Below the pieces are notes generated by a model that was not told where the DNA came from, searched no databases, and saw nothing but the letters and a program-made list of their open reading frames with translations. Made by a program: the position numbers and the translations under genes. A stretch of 64,000 nt of DNA from Gammaproteobacteria bacterium (GTDB lineage: Bacteria; Pseudomonadota; Gammaproteobacteria; Xanthomonadales; Wenzhouxiangellaceae): assembly GCA_009908385.1 (NCBI GenBank), contig JAAAPE010000073.1:1-64000 (forward strand). Reading direction: 5' to 3'. This document shows, piece by piece, positions 109 to 59,978 of this stretch. The first letter of the stretch is position 1. Each line of letters begins with the position of its first letter.

Positions 109-190
109 TTGTCCGTGCGTCAGTAGTCCGTACGTCTGTGGTCCGTACGTCTGTGGTCAGTACGTCCGTAGTCAGTGGTCAGTGCGTCTG
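109..190. repeat. Short tandem repeat array, GTGGTC/GTACGTCTGT type
   Basis: Degenerate 7-8 bp units related to GTGGTCAGT and CCGTACGTCT are stacked without spacers. The same family recurs at 311-441 in the opposite orientation, at 16935-17220 and at 43969-44060. Reading frames through it are low-complexity artefacts. Confidence 0.85.
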
Positions 191-216: not shown

Positions 217-242
217 GCCCCGGACTCGATCCGGGGCCTTTT
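217..242 (+). terminator. Terminator-like hairpin between two repeat arrays
   Basis: A perfect 8 bp stem (GCCCCGGA/TCCGGGGC) with a 5 nt loop is followed by CTTTT. It lies in the roughly 120 bp between two oppositely oriented repeat arrays. No gene ends directly before it, so it may belong to the repeat structure or be a second terminator for the upstream gene. Confidence 0.5.
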
Positions 243-310
243 CGCGGTTGGCGGCTGGGGCAGAGAAGGTCCCGGCTCTCCGCTGTCGCTCCGGCCGGGA
301 CTACCGGTGC

Positions 311-441
311 TGACGCACTGACCACGGACGCACAGACGCACAGACGCACTGACGCACAGACGCACTGACGCACTGACGCACTGACCACGGACGCACAGAC
401 CACGGACGCACAGACGACGGACGCACAGACGACGGACGCAC
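311..441. repeat. Short tandem repeat array, GACGCACA/GACCACG type
   Basis: About sixteen units of 7-8 bp (GACGCACA, GACGCACT, GACCACG, GACGACG) run head to tail. They are the reverse complement family of the array at 109-190, so the two arrays face each other. The rest of 1-510 holds no gene that I can support. Confidence 0.9.
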
Positions 442-12242: not shown

Positions 12243-13312
12243 ACACGAGAGTCCTGTCGGTCTGCTTTCTGCCCCTGGTCCTGGTCGCCTGCGGCGAGTC
12301 CGACCAAGCCGGGCCGCAGGAGCGGGCCACACCGGTGACCACCACCGCCGTCGTCACGCAGGGGGTGGAGCGCGTCGAGACGTCCGTCGGGCGGCTGCGG
12401 GCGAACTCTGCACCGCTGGTCTCGGCCGAGACGGCCGGGCGGATCGAGCGAGTTCATGTCGACGTCGGGGACGCCGTCGAAGCCGGTGCGCCGCTGGCCG
12501 TGATCGATCCGGAGGTGCAGCGCATCGCGGTCAGTTCCGGGCAGGCCGAACTGGCGCGGCTCGAGGCCCTGCTCGACAACGAGCGCCGTCGTGTCGGCCG
12601 CCTGAGCAACCTCGCCGAACAGCAGTCCGTCGCACAGGACCAGCTCGACGAAGCCCGGACCGCGGTCGAGTCGCTCGAAGCACAGGTCCAGGCGGCCCGG
12701 GCGCGCCTGGAAGACGCCGAGTACAACCTGCGACAGACTCGGATCGCCAGCCCCGTGGGCGGTCGCATCCAGGCGCGCATGATCAGCGTCGGGGACTATG
12801 TCGCGCCCGGCATGCCCGTCTTCGAGATGGTCTCCGGTCAGGCCCTGCGGGCCTTCCTGCCTGTGCCCGAACATCTGCAGGGCGAGGTCGGCGTCGGCCA
12901 GCCCGTGCGCCTGTCGGTGCCCGCGCAGCCCGGTAACGAGCTCGAGGCCGAGGTCGCCGCACTCGGTCCGACCATCGGGGAGGGATCACGGGCGATCGAG
13001 CTCATCATCGACCTCGAAAATCCCGACGACTGGCGCTCGGGCGGCTCGGTGACCGGCCGCATCGTTCTCGAACGCCATGAAGGCCTGGTCGTGCCGCCGA
13101 CCAGCGTCGTGCGCCGGCAGGCCGGCCCAGTGGTCTACGTGGTCGACGGCAATCGTGCCGCTGAAAGACCGGTCCGGGTCGGCCTGCGGGGTGACGGGTG
13201 GATCGAGATCATCGAAGGCGTCGAAGTCGGTGACGTCGTGGTGGTCGACGGCGCAGGTTTCCTGACCGACGGCGCCCTGCTCGAGGTCCGTGGCCGCGGA
13301 GAGCGCCCGTGA
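12239..13312 (+). CDS. RND efflux periplasmic adaptor (membrane fusion) lipoprotein
   Basis: 357 aa. The signal peptide ends in a lipobox (LVAC, Cys18), so it is a lipoprotein. Then come a biotinyl-lipoyl-like half (VSAETAGRIERVHVDVGD), an alpha-helical hairpin (about 90-160), the second lipoyl half and a beta-barrel/MP domain. It links the inner-membrane RND pump encoded next with an outer-membrane channel. No TolC-type gene is present here, so a channel from elsewhere must be used. Overlaps both neighbours by 4 bp. Confidence 0.94.
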   Translation: MNTRVLSVCFLPLVLVACGESDQAGPQERATPVTTTAVVTQGVERVETSVGRLRANSAPLVSAETAGRIERVHVDVGDAVEAGAPLAVIDPEVQRIAVSSGQAELARLEALLDNERRRVGRLSNLAEQQSVAQDQLDEARTAVESLEAQVQAARARLEDAEYNLRQTRIASPVGGRIQARMISVGDYVAPGMPVFEMVSGQALRAFLPVPEHLQGEVGVGQPVRLSVPAQPGNELEAEVAALGPTIGEGSRAIELIIDLENPDDWRSGGSVTGRIVLERHEGLVVPPTSVVRRQAGPVVYVVDGNRAAERPVRVGLRGDGWIEIIEGVEVGDVVVVDGAGFLTDGALLEVRGRGERP

Positions 13313-16300
13313 CGCTTCCGGAGCTGTCCATTCGCCGCCATGTGCTGGCCTGGATGATTTCGGCGGTGATGGTGCTTTTCGGCCTGATCGGATTCCGGTC
13401 CATCGGCGTGGACCGTTTTCCCGAAATCGAGTTTCCCCTGGTCTCGATCACCACGGTGCTGCCAGGCGCCAGCCCGGAAATCGTGGACGCCAGCATCACC
13501 AACATCGTGGAGGGCTCGGTCAACAGCGTTCCCGGCGTCGACTACATCCAGTCCAACTCCTCGCCGGGCGTCTCCAGCGTGGTCGTCACCTTCAACCTGG
13601 ACAAGGACATCGACGTGGCCTTCAACGAGGTGCAGGCCAAGGTCAACCAGGTGGTTCGCGAATTGCCTGAAGACGCCGATCCGCCCGTGGTCGCCAAGAT
13701 CGAAGCCGGTGCCAGTCCCGTGATGTGGCTTTCATTGCAGGGCGACCGCACGCTCCAGCAGCTCAACCAGTACGCCGACAACGTCATCCGCAAGCGTCTC
13801 GAGACCATCGACGGCGTCGGTGAGGTGCGAATCGGTGGGCGGCGGGCCCGCACGATCCGCGTTGAAGTCGATCTCGAGCGAATGGCTGCCCTCGGCGTCA
13901 CGGCACGGGACATCCGCAGCGCCTTCGCGACCGAGCACGTCCAGTTTCCCGGCGGATTCCTCGTGTCCGGCGCGACCGAGTCCCTGGTCAAGCTGGATCT
14001 CGAATACCACTCGCCGGAAGCGCTGGAGAGCCTGGTGGTCCGGTATGTCGACGGATCGCCCATCCGGCTTTCGGATTTCTCGGAGGTCGTCGACGGTCTT
14101 TCCGACAACCGGTCCATCGCGCGCTTCATGGGTGAGCCGACCGTGGGGCTGGGCATCGTCAAGATCGCCGGCACCAACACGGTGGCCATCGTCGACGAGG
14201 TCAAGCGCCGACTGGACGAGCAGATCATTCCGCAGCTGCCGCCGGGGATGACGCTCGAGATCGCTTCCGACGACTCGGAGCTGATCGAGGAGATCGTCCA
14301 GGCGCTGGAAGATCACCTGCTCGAGGGCACGCTGCTCGCAGCCCTGGTCGTTCTGTTCTTCCTGCGCACCTGGCGCGGCACCCTGATCATCGCGCTGGCC
14401 ATCCCGGTGTCGCTGCTGGCCGCCGTTGCGGCGATCTACATGCTCGGCTACACCTTCAATACCATGACCCTGCTGGGCCTGCTGCTGCTGATCGGGGTGG
14501 TGGTCGACGATGCGATCGTCGTGCTCGAGAACATCTACCGCTTCCGCGAGGAGAAAACCCCCGATCCGATCGAGGCCGCCATCGGGGGCAGCAACCAGGT
14601 CTTCTTCGCCATCGTCGCCACGACGCTGACGCTCGTGTCCATTTTCGCTTCGGTGGTTTTCCTCGGCGGGATCATCGGCCGCTTCTTCGAGTCCTTCGCC
14701 GTGACCGTGACGGTCGGCGTGCTGGCCTCGGCCGTCGTGTCGCTGACGCTCACGCCGATGCTCAGTTCGCGCTTCCTTCGAGTCCGCCGCAAGGGCGAGG
14801 AACACGGACGGCTCTACCACGCCTTCGATCGCTTCTTCGCGGCCATGAACGACGCCTACCGGCGCGCTCTCCGCTGGACCCTGACTCGCCGTTGGAGCGT
14901 TCTCCTCATCGCCCTGCTGATCGTCCTCAGCTCGGGCTTTTTCCTGGCCGACATCGACAAGGAGTTCGTGCCCGAGGAAGACGAGGGTCGTTTCGTCGTG
15001 TCCTTCCGTGCGCCGCTGGGGACCGGCATCGAGGCGACCGACCGCTACCTGGCCCGGATCGAGCAGGTGCTGGGCTCGCACGAGGAGATACGGACCTACT
15101 TCACGGCCATCGGCCTGGGTGAGGCCGGCGAGGTCAACCGCGGCACCGCTTTCGTCCGGATGGTCGATCGGAGCGAACGCGAGGTCTCGCAACAGGACTA
15201 TCTCGACACGCTCCGGGCCGAGCTCGCGGGCATCCCCGGCGTCGTGGCATTCGCCGCGCCGCCGTCGATCATCGGAGGACAGCGGGGCGAACCGCTGCAG
15301 TTCGTCATCAGCGGCCCCGATCTAGAGCGTGTGTCCGAGCTGGCGAGCCGAATGCGCGATCGGCTCGAAGACATCGACGGGATGGGCCGCCTCGATCTCG
15401 ATCTCCAGCTTGATCTGCCCCAGCTCGCCATCGAGATCGACCGCGTCCGAACCGCCGCGGCCGGATTGACTTCGGCGGACGTGGCCTTCGCCGTCAACAT
15501 GCTGGTCGGCGGGTTCGACATCGCCCGATACAACGACGAGCCCGGTGACGGTGAACGCTACGACATACGCGTCAAGGCCGCCGGGGGCGAGGTGGTCCGC
15601 CCGGCCGACCTGGGCCGGATCCACCTGCGCTCGGCCGACGGCTCGCTGGTGCGTTTCGATACCCTGGCCCGGGCCAGGGAGACCGTCGGGCCGGCCGTCA
15701 TCACACGGTTTGACCTCAATTACTCGGCCGACTTCTACGGCAACCCCGAGATGCCGCTGGGCGAAGCCGTGAATGCGATCGACCGCGCCGCCGAAGAGAT
15801 CCTGCCGCTGGGCTACCGGGTGGCCTACAAGGCAGAGGCGAGAGAGTTCCAGCAGACCGTCGGCTACGTGCTGTTCGCGTTCGTGCTGGCGGTGATCCTC
15901 GTCTATATCGTTCTGGCCAGCCAGTTCAACTCCTTCATCCAGCCGCTGATCGTGATGACCGCCCAGCCCCTGGCAGTCGTCGGCGGCGTGTTCCTGCTCT
16001 GGCTCACCGGGCACTCACTCAACATCTACTCGATGATCGGTATGGTGCTGCTTGTCGGCCTGGTGGCCAAGAACTCGATCCTGCTGGTGGACCTCGCGAA
16101 CCAGTACCGGGAGAAGGGGCAGGGCGTTGACGAGGCGCTGTCCGAAGCGTGTCCCGTGAGGCTCCGTCCCGTGCTGATGACGTCCTTCACGGTTATCCTC
16201 GCCCTGCTGCCGCCGGCCCTGGGCCTCGGCGCCGGTGCCGACACCAACGGCCCGCTGGCCGTGGCGGTGATCGGTGGCATGCTCAGCTCGACATTGTTGA

Positions 16301-16395
16301 CACTGGTCGTGGTGCCGGCCGCGTATTCGCTTATCGAGGGCTTCATCGGCCGAGGCCGGGCCCGAACCGAAGCAACCCGAGGAGAAACGACATGA
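13309..16395 (+). CDS. RND family efflux permease (AcrB/MexB-like)
   Basis: 1028 aa, full length, with a GTG start overlapping the adaptor stop. It has the RND plan: one N-terminal helix, a large periplasmic loop, a helix block around 340-560, a second loop and a final helix block. The proton-relay aspartate pair is seen in IGVVVDDAIVVLENI (about 396-410). It belongs to the hydrophobe/amphiphile exporter group. The substrate cannot be read from sequence. Confidence 0.95.
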   Translation: MTLPELSIRRHVLAWMISAVMVLFGLIGFRSIGVDRFPEIEFPLVSITTVLPGASPEIVDASITNIVEGSVNSVPGVDYIQSNSSPGVSSVVVTFNLDKDIDVAFNEVQAKVNQVVRELPEDADPPVVAKIEAGASPVMWLSLQGDRTLQQLNQYADNVIRKRLETIDGVGEVRIGGRRARTIRVEVDLERMAALGVTARDIRSAFATEHVQFPGGFLVSGATESLVKLDLEYHSPEALESLVVRYVDGSPIRLSDFSEVVDGLSDNRSIARFMGEPTVGLGIVKIAGTNTVAIVDEVKRRLDEQIIPQLPPGMTLEIASDDSELIEEIVQALEDHLLEGTLLAALVVLFFLRTWRGTLIIALAIPVSLLAAVAAIYMLGYTFNTMTLLGLLLLIGVVVDDAIVVLENIYRFREEKTPDPIEAAIGGSNQVFFAIVATTLTLVSIFASVVFLGGIIGRFFESFAVTVTVGVLASAVVSLTLTPMLSSRFLRVRRKGEEHGRLYHAFDRFFAAMNDAYRRALRWTLTRRWSVLLIALLIVLSSGFFLADIDKEFVPEEDEGRFVVSFRAPLGTGIEATDRYLARIEQVLGSHEEIRTYFTAIGLGEAGEVNRGTAFVRMVDRSEREVSQQDYLDTLRAELAGIPGVVAFAAPPSIIGGQRGEPLQFVISGPDLERVSELASRMRDRLEDIDGMGRLDLDLQLDLPQLAIEIDRVRTAAAGLTSADVAFAVNMLVGGFDIARYNDEPGDGERYDIRVKAAGGEVVRPADLGRIHLRSADGSLVRFDTLARARETVGPAVITRFDLNYSADFYGNPEMPLGEAVNAIDRAAEEILPLGYRVAYKAEAREFQQTVGYVLFAFVLAVILVYIVLASQFNSFIQPLIVMTAQPLAVVGGVFLLWLTGHSLNIYSMIGMVLLVGLVAKNSILLVDLANQYREKGQGVDEALSEACPVRLRPVLMTSFTVILALLPPALGLGAGADTNGPLAVAVIGGMLSSTLLTLVVVPAAYSLIEGFIGRGRARTEATRGETT

Positions 16396-16928
16396 AACTG
16401 CTGGCCGTTTCCGGAAGCCTGAGAAAGGACTCCTTCAACACCCGCCTGGCGAAACTGATTGCCGATGCCTCGAACGTGGACATCGACGTCGCCACGCTGC
16501 ACGAGATTCCGCTTTACAACGGCGACGATGAAGCCGAAACGGGCATTCCCGAGGCGGTCGAGACATTGCGTCGGCGCATCAAGGCCGCCGACGGCCTGAT
16601 CATCGTCACGCCGGAGTACAACGCGGCCATGCCCGGCGTGCTCAAGAACGCGCTCGACTGGCTGACCCGGCCCGGCGAGGAAATGAAGCCCACCTTCGGT
16701 GGGCGCCCGACTGCGCTGGCCGGCGCCACCCCGGGCGCCTGGGGGACGGCCTTCGCCCAGGCCGGCGCCCTGATCAACCTGCGCCAGCTGGGTTGCTGGC
16801 TGTTTCCCGACTACTTGCGCATATCGAAAGCCGGCGACCGCTTCGACGGCGACCGGGCCGACGACGAGCTGAAGGGGCAGGTCGCCGGCTGGGTGAAGCG
16901 ATTCGTCGACTTCGCCGGACGGGGGTGA
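16392..16928 (+). CDS. NADPH-dependent FMN reductase / flavodoxin-like quinone reductase
   Basis: 178 aa starting at ATG 16392, overlapping the RND stop by 4 bp. The flavodoxin-like fold is shown by the FMN-phosphate loop SGSLRKDSFN near the N-terminus and the family motif TPEYNAAMPGVLKNALDW (residues about 78-95). It resembles the chromate/quinone reductases of the NADPH-dependent FMN reductase family. Translational coupling to an efflux pump suggests that it chemically reduces the compound, probably a quinone or nitroaromatic-like electrophile, that the pump removes. That role is inference. Confidence 0.9.
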   Translation: MKLLAVSGSLRKDSFNTRLAKLIADASNVDIDVATLHEIPLYNGDDEAETGIPEAVETLRRRIKAADGLIIVTPEYNAAMPGVLKNALDWLTRPGEEMKPTFGGRPTALAGATPGAWGTAFAQAGALINLRQLGCWLFPDYLRISKAGDRFDGDRADDELKGQVAGWVKRFVDFAGRG

Positions 16929-16934
16929 GGGGCG

Positions 16935-17110
16935 GTGGTCGGTCTTCAGTGGTCCGTGCGTCAGTGGTCAGTGGTCAGTGGTCAGTGGTCAGTGGTCAGT
17001 GGTCAGTGGTCAGTGGTCGGTGGTCAGTGGTCAGTAGTCAGTGGTCAGTGGTCAGTGGTCAGTAGTCAGTAGTCAGTAGTCAGTAGTCAGTAGTCAGTAG
17101 TCAGTAGTCG
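16935..17110. repeat. Short tandem repeat array, GTGGTCA/GTAGTCA heptamers
   Basis: More than twenty consecutive 7 bp units, GTGGTCA changing to GTAGTCA toward the right, begin directly after the FMN reductase stop. Same family as the arrays at 109-190 and 43969-44060. Confidence 0.95.
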
Positions 17111-17129
17111 GTGTGGCTGGAGACCGGCG

Positions 17130-17220
17130 GACGCACGGACCACAGACGCACGGACGCACGGACCACAGACGCACAGACGCACGGACCACAGACGCACAGA
17201 CGCACAGACCACGGACGCGC
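17130..17220. repeat. Short tandem repeat array, GACGCACG/GACCACA units
   Basis: Units of 7-8 bp (GACGCACG, GACCACA, GACGCACA) lie in the orientation opposite to the array at 16935-17110 and 20 bp away from it. The pair is bounded on the right by a tRNA-Arg gene. Confidence 0.92.
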
Positions 17221-17229
17221 GTCGCGAAT

Positions 17230-17306
17230 TGGCGCCCCGGGCAGGATTCGAACCTGCGACCTGCCGCTTAGGAGGCGGCTGCTCTATCCTTCTGAGCTAC
17301 CGGGGC
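17230..17306 (-). tRNA. tRNA-Arg (anticodon CCT)
   Basis: 77 nt cloverleaf on the minus strand with acceptor GCCCCGG/CCGGGGC, anticodon loop CTCCTAA and encoded CCA. It begins 31 nt downstream of the rnd stop codon. Confidence 0.97.
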
Positions 17307-39915: not shown

Positions 39916-39980
39916 TCCTGAACCCTGAAACCTGAACCCTGGAACCGCTTCCGACCCTGGAACCGAGCCCTGGAACCCCC
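39916..39980. repeat. Short repeat array, CCTGAAC/CCTGGAA type
   Basis: Consecutive 7-8 bp units (CCTGAAC, CCTGAAA, CCTGGAAC) fill the rnfC-rnfD gap. Same family as 49354-49398 and 49510-49540. It supplies a spurious N-terminal extension of the rnfD frame. Confidence 0.85.
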
Positions 39981-43968: not shown

Positions 43969-44060
43969 CGTGGTCTGTGCGTCTGTGCGTCTGTGCGTCA
44001 CTGGTCCTTAGTCGGACTACTGACCACTGACCACTGACCACCGCCTACTGACCACCGACC
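43969..44060. repeat. Short tandem repeats in opposed arrays (GTGCGTCT and ACTGACC units)
   Basis: The left half is GTGCGTCT units, the right half ACTGACC(ACTGACC) units, the reverse complement of the GTGGTCA family, around a short centre. The right end abuts the stop codon of the PQQ-dependent dehydrogenase gene. Confidence 0.92.
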
Positions 44061-48281: not shown

Positions 48282-49355
48282 ATGAACAACGAGGAAGGCA
48301 AGACGCTCGTCGCCGCAATCGAGGATCCCAACACGGGGCGTCCGCTGGGGGACGCCGTTCGCGGCGTGGCCGTGAGCGACCGCCGGGCGGCCGTTGACAT
48401 TCGCCTGTCCTATCCCGCCGCCGGCTGGAAGGACGAATTGGCCGCGATCGTCTCCGATCGGCTCCGCGACGGGGGCGACGTGGACGAGGTCACCGTCGAC
48501 GTCGACTGGCAGATTCCCCAGCACGCCGTGCAGGGCGGGCTCGACCCCATCGAGGGGGTGCGCAACGTCATCGCCGTGGCCTCGGGCAAGGGGGGGGTCG
48601 GCAAGTCCACGGTGAGCGCGAATCTGGCGCTGGCCCTGGCGGCCGAAGGCGCGACGGTCGGCGTCCTCGATGCGGATATCTACGGACCCAGCCAGCCCCG
48701 CATGCTGGGCCTCCAGGGCGGGCCGAAGACGACCGAGAATCGCCGCATCCTGCCGATGCGGGCCCACGGTCTGCAGGTCATGAGCATCGGCGTTCTGGTC
48801 GACACCGACCAGGCCATGATCTGGCGCGGCCCGATGGCGACCCAGGCCCTCCAGCAGATGGTCTCCGAAACGCTCTGGGAAAGCCTGGATTACCTGGTGG
48901 TCGACCTCCCGCCCGGCACCGGTGACATCCAGCTCACTCTGGCCCAGCGCATCCCGGTCGCCGGCGCTGTCACCGTGACGACGCCGCAGGAAGTGGCCGT
49001 CGACGATGTCCGCCGCGCCGTTGCCATGTTCAACAAGGTCAAGGTGCCGGTGCTGGGCGTGGTCGAGAACATGAGTACCCACATCTGTTCCAGCTGCGGG
49101 CACGAAGATGCCGTGTTCGGTCGCGGCGGCGGCGAACGCATCGCACGCGAGGCCGGCGTGCCTAACCTGGGCCAGTTGCCGCTGGAATCCGAGGTGGGTC
49201 GCACCACCGACGAGGGAACGCCGATCGTGGTCGCCGACCCCGATCACCCGGCCGCCCGGCGCTTTCGCGAGATCGCTCGCCGCGTGGCCGGCCGCCTGTC
49301 GACGCAGTCGAGGGAGGCGAAGGTGCGGATGCCGAAAATCCGGATTACGGATTAG
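48282..49355 (+). CDS. apbC: Iron-sulfur cluster carrier protein ApbC (Mrp/NBP35 family)
   Basis: 357 aa. N-terminal MIP18-like domain (about 1-85), then the P-loop ATPase domain with a deviant Walker A GKGGVGKST (about 102-110), DADIYGPSQ and DLPPGTGD. A C-terminal CxxC (ICSSCGHED) can bridge a 4Fe-4S cluster between two subunits. It delivers clusters to apo-proteins. The stop codon is embedded in the beginning of a TTTCAGG repeat array. Confidence 0.96.
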   Translation: MNNEEGKTLVAAIEDPNTGRPLGDAVRGVAVSDRRAAVDIRLSYPAAGWKDELAAIVSDRLRDGGDVDEVTVDVDWQIPQHAVQGGLDPIEGVRNVIAVASGKGGVGKSTVSANLALALAAEGATVGVLDADIYGPSQPRMLGLQGGPKTTENRRILPMRAHGLQVMSIGVLVDTDQAMIWRGPMATQALQQMVSETLWESLDYLVVDLPPGTGDIQLTLAQRIPVAGAVTVTTPQEVAVDDVRRAVAMFNKVKVPVLGVVENMSTHICSSCGHEDAVFGRGGGERIAREAGVPNLGQLPLESEVGRTTDEGTPIVVADPDHPAARRFREIARRVAGRLSTQSREAKVRMPKIRITD

Positions 49356-49398
49356 GGTTTAGGTTTCAGGGTTCAGGTTTCAGGTTTCAGGTTTCAGG
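49354..49398. repeat. Short tandem repeat array, TTTCAGG heptamers
   Basis: Six units of 7 bp (TTTCAGG, GTTCAGG variants) start on the apbC stop codon. The same heptamer occurs in the opposite orientation at 49510-49540. The 110 bp between the two arrays contains no supported gene. Confidence 0.92.
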
Positions 49399-49509: not shown

Positions 49510-49540
49510 CCTGAAACCTGAAACCTGAACCCTGAAACCT
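49510..49540. repeat. Short tandem repeat array, CCTGAAA heptamers
   Basis: Four 7 bp units in the orientation opposite to 49354-49398, ending 8 bp before the dcd stop codon. Confidence 0.92.
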
Positions 49541-59909: not shown

Positions 59910-59978
59910 AAACCAGCCAACCAGCGAAGCCAGCCAACGAACCAACGAACCAACGAACCAACGAACCAACGAATCAGC
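59910..59978. repeat. Short tandem repeat array, CCAACCAG then CCAACGAA octamers
   Basis: Eight or more 8 bp units, ending four bases before the rlmE ATG, so the array lies in the rlmE leader. A short TTCAGGG repeat (59869-59885) precedes it. Confidence 0.92.

Follow-up and report, generated by a model that had tools for sequence, protein, structure and literature searches.

Facing arrays of exchangeable 7- and 8-base units in a genome of the Wenzhouxiangellaceae

Results

Opposed arrays in the window

The window analysed here is a stretch of 64,000 nucleotides, positions 1 to 64,000 of contig JAAAPE010000073.1 (assembly GCA_009908385.1), from a gammaproteobacterium of the Wenzhouxiangellaceae. 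The genome under study (G000) comprises 2.94 Mb in 155 contigs and the assembly is 85% complete. Three loci in the window carry two arms of short abutting units in opposite orientation. At locus 1 the left arm (111..190, + strand) is a mixture of 7- and 8-base GTC units, while the right arm (312..441, - strand) is built from GACGCACA and GACCACG units. Between them lies a GC-rich hairpin followed by a T run (218..245, + strand), read directly and resembling an intrinsic terminator. Locus 2 begins 6 bp beyond the end of an NADPH-dependent FMN reductase gene (16392..16928, + strand), which served as the anchor for comparison of orthologs. Its left arm (16935..17113, + strand) holds approximately 25 heptamers, GTGGTCA and then GTAGTCA, and its right arm (17130..17218, - strand) consists of GACGCAC(A/G) with GACCACA every 23 bp. 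A tRNA-Arg (CCT) gene (17230..17306, - strand) adjoins locus 2 downstream and is the tRNA that the original prediction had placed beside one array. Locus 3 combines a left arm of 8-base GTCTGTGC units (43969..44005, + strand) with a right arm of 7-base GACCACT units (44015..44060, - strand).

The units of these loci belong to one family (GTC family, F1), whose motif is GTCNGTR in the 7-base arms and GTCNGTRY in the 8-base arms, with opposite arms often differing in form. None of the units at loci 1-3 contains GGG. The window contains 36 two-unit matches to the 7-base form, where 100 dinucleotide shuffles give an expectation of 0.00, and 22 to the 8-base form, where such shuffles give 0.01, confirming that opposed arrays lie at the three places originally proposed. 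The right arms had been called a reverse-complement family; a single motif, GTCNGTR(Y), does underlie both orientations, but GTGGTCA and GACGCAC are inexact reverse complements, one being of the 7-base and the other of the 8-base form. Since the units abut with no unique spacers, the exclusion of CRISPR stands. Unit counts per arm scatter from approximately 3 to 23, and four units are not preferred.

Other families share the window. A second family (F2, GGTTTCA/GGGTTCA) forms a pair with a left arm of GGGTTCA and GGTTTCA (49354..49398, + strand) and a right arm of CCTGAAA (49510..49540, - strand), as well as a lone array (39917..39977, - strand) that is also found, in degenerate form, in the related genome G003. 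A third family is represented by five copies of CCAACGAA (59934..59973, - strand).

The families across the genome

The three recurrences originally noted are the window's share of a genome-wide family. In G000 the 17-base form of the F1 motif has 137 matches (90 + 47) and the 8-base form 82 (42 + 40), the reversed control giving 0 in both cases, and F2 has 206. Further units include TTCGTTGG, AAATTCG (F4) and the 10-base ATCTGTGTTC. Within a 417-kb sample of the genome, made up of the window and stretches of five contigs, the 26 F1 arms are all paired, and each of the 13 pairs starts with its GT-rich arm. Inclusion of other contigs raises the number of opposed F1 pairs to 22, again with the GT-rich arm leading in 22/22; a single further pair has both arms in the same direction, and 11 arms stand alone. 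Three of the opposed pairs are second alleles of loci already counted, which leaves 19 distinct loci. The F2 pairs follow the G-rich-first order in 11/11 cases, and the F4 pairs are reversed, with the A/C-rich arm first in 3/3.

All 13 F1 elements of the 417-kb sample are intergenic, where intergenic DNA has a share of only 9.6%, in agreement with the claim that the arrays lie outside genes. Orientation is non-random across the opposed pairs found in the genome, and intergenic sites are preferred in the 417-kb sample, the opposite of what would have spoken against the original prediction. Six of the 13 lie in same-direction gaps, three in convergent gaps, three in divergent gaps and one at a contig edge (background 134/24/51), and a preference for gene ends is not evident. 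Locus 2 and an element at C155:82.6k have a common arm order and common outer sequence (81% over 269 columns), which accords with the suggestion that arrays were copied between loci.

Other repeats were encountered alongside these families. A 10-base repeat pair, CACAGATGAA/ATCTGTGTTC, lies at C73:25764-25946 with the A/C-rich arm first and is kept at the same gap of G003. Longer inverted elements of the form GTAGGTCGCGGTCGC...GCGGCCCCGACCTAC, a different dispersed repeat family, occur at C73:14355-14625 and C44:12242-12452 and are missing from the matching gaps of G003. At C85:3115-3320 a 15-bp tandem repeat, AAGAAGGCTTCCAAG, with 13.7 copies fell outside the gene calls; the repeat looks like lysine-rich coding sequence and may belong to a missed gene.

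Period and polarity

We surveyed period in long stretches of six genomes. These stretches, some of them picked for holding matches, gave 204 intergenic arrays of period 5-12, of which 155 have period 7, 24 have period 8 and 20 have period 9, all of the last from Calothrix; 31 more arrays lie inside genes. Where neighbouring arrays in these stretches have opposite G-C skew, the G-rich array comes first in 29/29 pairs. The same order was found in 33/34 pairs from 80 foreign loci, in 9/11 from the loci of relatives and in 4/4 from further loci. Across own, relative and foreign sequence it holds for complementary (37:0) and non-complementary (21:1) pairs alike, and facing polarity was 40:1 in an opposed-pair sample of 41 pairs. 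Several results count against a universal polarity: the reversed F4 pairs (3/3), the 9:2 split in the loci of relatives, and the 10-base ATCTGTGTTC pairs, which by eye have the A/C-rich arm first. Quadruplex formation by G-runs was rejected as a common cause, because the order persists in pairs with no GGG in either arm (28:0).

Genes provide a second reference for polarity. With respect to the closest gene end, the G-rich strand is directed outward by 63:12 at 3' ends and by 43:7 at 5' ends, an effect that fades beyond 100 bp (8:8 and 6:5), and with the arrays disregarded the sequence near gene ends has no strong skew. The rule is weaker for arrays without any GG (14:6), and in Acidobacteria AB60 it stands at 6:5. 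Selection at gene edges was considered as the primary rule and set aside: the facing order is retained (9:1) by opposed pairs that are separated from both genes by more than 80 bp, and because of this we provisionally take the gene-edge rule to follow from pair geometry.

Exchange of units at orthologous sites

The FMN reductase gene was compared across 24 same-genus loci, G000 included, and in 19 of these tRNA-Arg is still the next gene. Short-unit arrays occupy the gap between the two genes in 7/19 loci, and the units differ. The GTC family is present in G000 and G011, ACCTCGA in G009, TTCGTCGG with AACCTAG in G021, TTCGTTGG with TTTTGCC in G029, TTGGCTGG in G008 and CCTCGAA in G018. In 6/19 loci the gap is shorter than 20 bp and free of arrays, and in the remaining 6/19 it holds other sequence, with tRNA-tail repeats in four of these. 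The four (L288, L289, L292 and L293) carry repeats resembling the tRNA-Arg 3' tail, tandem in L289, at the position where other species have heptamer arrays.

Automatic scoring of 85 syntenic gaps between G000 and G003 found arrays in both genomes at 3, in one genome only at 3 and 4, and in neither at 75. Slot occupancy is thus somewhat correlated (Fisher p 0.006; 0.04 for gaps of at least 60 bp), which could reflect either function or permissiveness. At several common gaps the two genomes hold different pair families, as judged by eye, and the array of locus 3 is absent from the syntenic gap in G003.

Some heptamer pairs lie in frame within a gene, in the linker of a 2-oxoacid dehydrogenase acyltransferase (E2) between the lipoyl and E3-binding domains. 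Here too the units vary, being GGGTTCA with CCTGAAA in G000 and GGGAGAC with CCGGAAA in G025 and G014, with none in G017; this comparison covered 14 loci, 4 of which yielded no linker by the search pattern. Between similar flanks, the linker has four GGGTTCA units in G000 and one in G003. In L151 (C44) two adjacent lipoyl-domain proteins, an acyltransferase and a dihydrolipoamide-dehydrogenase-like protein, each have in-frame heptamer pairs in their linkers (12453-13871 and 14551-16395).

Allelic changes at contig ends

Three pairs of overlapping contig ends lie in arrays, which probably add to the breaks in the assembly. Two alleles of one array locus are found, one at positions 1-476 of the window and one where contig C64 (L055) begins, with the contig break at the array. 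Relative to C155, the C64 allele of locus 1 is 67 bp longer in the left arm and 62 bp shorter in the right arm, with the centre and flanks nearly identical and the terminator-like hairpin between the arms (218..245) unchanged. Contigs C59 and C114 agree at 263/264 aligned bases, and their left arms differ by 40 bp (5x8) and their right arms by 63 bp (9x7). In the C22/C46 overlap 226/227 bases are identical and one arm only differs, by 24 bp (3x8). On the sequence evidence we read these differences as strain variation in which each arm changes unit-wise by itself, although collapse during short-read assembly could account for them in part. Alleles that differ by whole units support the original suggestion of slippage.

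Spread beyond the genus

Among 101 genomes (G000 and 100 relatives) F1-like matches were found in 21 and F2-like matches in 43, with just 1-2 per genome outside the family. At least 120 exact stretches of the 21-mer (GTCAGTG)3 were found among bacteria, across many phyla. In 15 genomes with this 21-mer the corresponding 14-mer has between 2 and 415 matches, and the reversed control is matched in 2 of them. Of 294 evenly drawn Planctomycetota genomes, 8, seed included, contained the 21-mer and 3 the reversed heptamer. A sequence conserved across phyla was rejected on this count, the exact unit being mildly special at most, and horizontal spread is not claimed. The array class is widespread, arrays being found in Calothrix and Argonema as well, while the exact GTC word is not clearly special.

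Discussion

The arrays change by whole units between alleles, their two arms vary independently, different units stand in for one another at orthologous sites, and the head-to-head polarity extends over the genome. We favour, with somewhat better than even confidence, the reading that they are slippage-driven heptamer and octamer satellites whose sequence has no specific function, because satellites of exchangeable sequence fit the allele and ortholog data. A word of 7-8 bp would be duplicated in tandem through slippage, the tract would lengthen and shorten by whole units, and such tracts would recur at many permissive intergenic gaps. An opposed pair would then be two satellite tracts facing each other over a gap, with arms that evolve separately and no maintenance of a stem. 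In this reading we infer that slippage is the growth step, that copying between loci spreads the arrays and that they are nearly neutral. The slippage account covers neither the inward G-rich strand nor period 7; plain slippage does not predict the polarity seen in 29/29 neighbouring pairs and in the 40:1 sample. The correlated slot occupancy of G000 and G003 also weighs against it, the unit differences at contig ends could partly reflect assembly collapse, and F1 arms may owe their poor pairing to one asymmetric ancestor and not to repeated evolution.

A structural element, in which the two arms would fold into a long hairpin of RNA or DNA for termination, mRNA 3' protection or insulation and any folding sequence suffices, seems unlikely. 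The three elements of the window do fold strongly (-192.3, -128.1 and -39.5 kcal/mol), most own pairs are complementary, and some G000/G003 gaps appear by eye to retain an opposed pair despite a switch of family. Selection for a hairpin predicts, however, stronger pairing between the two arms of one locus than between arms drawn from different loci, and the reverse was found. The inner 24 bases of F1 arms gave -20.1 kcal/mol within loci and -25.2 kcal/mol between loci (n=13; fraction of permutations less than or equal to observed, 1.0). Full arms also pair worse within loci (n=20, two of which are alleles of one locus; permutation fraction 0.9996), because one arm is often of the 7-base and the other of the 8-base type. 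The poor pairing may be an inherited asymmetry, yet it counts against maintenance of a stem, and on this duplex comparison we rejected hairpin selection for F1. The polarity of non-complementary arms (21:1) and the independent length changes of the arms also fail to support the originally suggested hairpin as a selected feature, and arrays are missing from some orthologous gaps. Pairing of this kind and the lack of a gene-end preference likewise led us to reject intrinsic terminators, and the suggestion of a transcription boundary fares no better, given that gene orientation is not preferred and that some pairs lie inside open reading frames such as the acyltransferase linker. A role as regulatory sites bound by a GTGGTCA-specific protein is highly improbable: the unit is strongly conserved within the genome, but orthologous sites carry different units and promoters are not preferred.

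Two further explanations address how the pairs arise. Fused eukaryotic telomeres offer a comparison for facing G/T-rich tracts, and growth at DNA ends might by analogy add tracts at the two facing 3' ends of a break, gap or stalled fork before the ends are joined, leaving the inward strands G/T-rich. We regard this as doubtful. It would suit an inward strand that is G-rich whatever the unit or complementarity (37:0, 21:1), the polarity of pairs distant from both genes and the different units in the arms of one locus. Against it, native sequence lies between the arms at some loci, the F4 pairs run the opposite way (3/3), and a search of the 85% complete G000 assembly for PF00078 reverse transcriptases found none, which would speak against templating by reverse transcriptase in this genome; telomerase-like repeat addition would call for such an enzyme together with a template RNA. 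Its broader form, a directional process that in several phyla would deposit heptamers of any sequence wherever two DNA ends face each other, always with the G-rich strand oriented 5' to 3' toward the centre, and so leave scars between genes like those of telomere fusion, is improbable. Movement of the pair as a unit with a transposase acting in trans, in the style of REP/BIME or MITE elements, is very unlikely. As would suit a mobile element, locus 2 and C155:82.6k match in the order of their arms and in outer sequence, and Y1 transposases occur in 9/30 genomes of the genus, but there is none in G000 or in the array-rich G003, G025 and G029, and units vary among loci and species. RAYT/REP mobility was rejected on 0 matches to PF01797 in the 85% complete G000 assembly.

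The slippage satellites favoured here have counterparts among described repeats. Cyanobacterial heptanucleotide repeats are named STRR, and they resemble the present arrays in period 7, in having many unit sequences and in lying between genes; they are described as tandem, and the descriptions found do not state an opposed polarity of unlike units. Rehm et al. 2015 (PMC4692102) cite the heptanucleotide repeats of Calothrix and Nostoc, and describe dispersed intergenic pairs of convergent GGGAATC heptamers in Xanthomonas, 70 in Xcc and 75 in Xac. With respect to ORFs, the G-rich strand there is on the sense strand when downstream and on the antisense strand when upstream; quadruplexes are proposed, and 83% of the Xcc repeats are at the same place in Xac. 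Our arrays are like these in being tandem heptamers that are mostly intergenic (13/13 for F1, with periods 7 and 8 dominant), in being convergent (22/22 opposed pairs, 19 loci after removal of alleles) and in their placement relative to ORFs. They differ in unit sequence, F1 having no GGG where the Xanthomonas unit (GGGNATC) is quadruplex-capable, in mixing 7- and 8-base units, in having arms of unlike heptamers, in showing no preference for four units and in holding different heptamers at orthologous sites. Convergent heptamer pairs are already known from Xanthomonas (PMC4692102), and the arrays here are a variant with unlike units.

MacGregor 2015 (PMC4679880) reports TAACTGA heptamers in intergenic DNA of marine Beggiatoaceae and also in cyanobacteria and Bacteroidetes, mostly as direct repeats immediately before start codons and in one case inverted. 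In this they differ from our opposed pairs, which occupy same-direction, convergent and divergent gaps. For Geobacter metallireducens, the genome paper (PMC2700814) describes 49 sites at which GGGACCG is repeated four times in tandem, and another class in which five heptamers are depicted as a loop. A role as binding sites or as regulatory elements in RNA is proposed there, and the sequences differ from those of our arrays. No statement of a facing-polarity rule for unlike heptamers was found in the literature searched, subscription journals lying outside its scope.

Bacterial heptamer arrays have so far been explained unit by unit, whether as signals for translation, as binding sites or as quadruplexes. 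In the arrays described here a given gene neighbourhood can carry different units, while the period of 7-8 bp and the facing polarity persist, even where GGG or complementarity is lacking. Sequence-specific explanations can be tested against one common question, namely what generates and orients these tracts, and unit changes at the level of strains provide a direct handle on the dynamics of the arrays.
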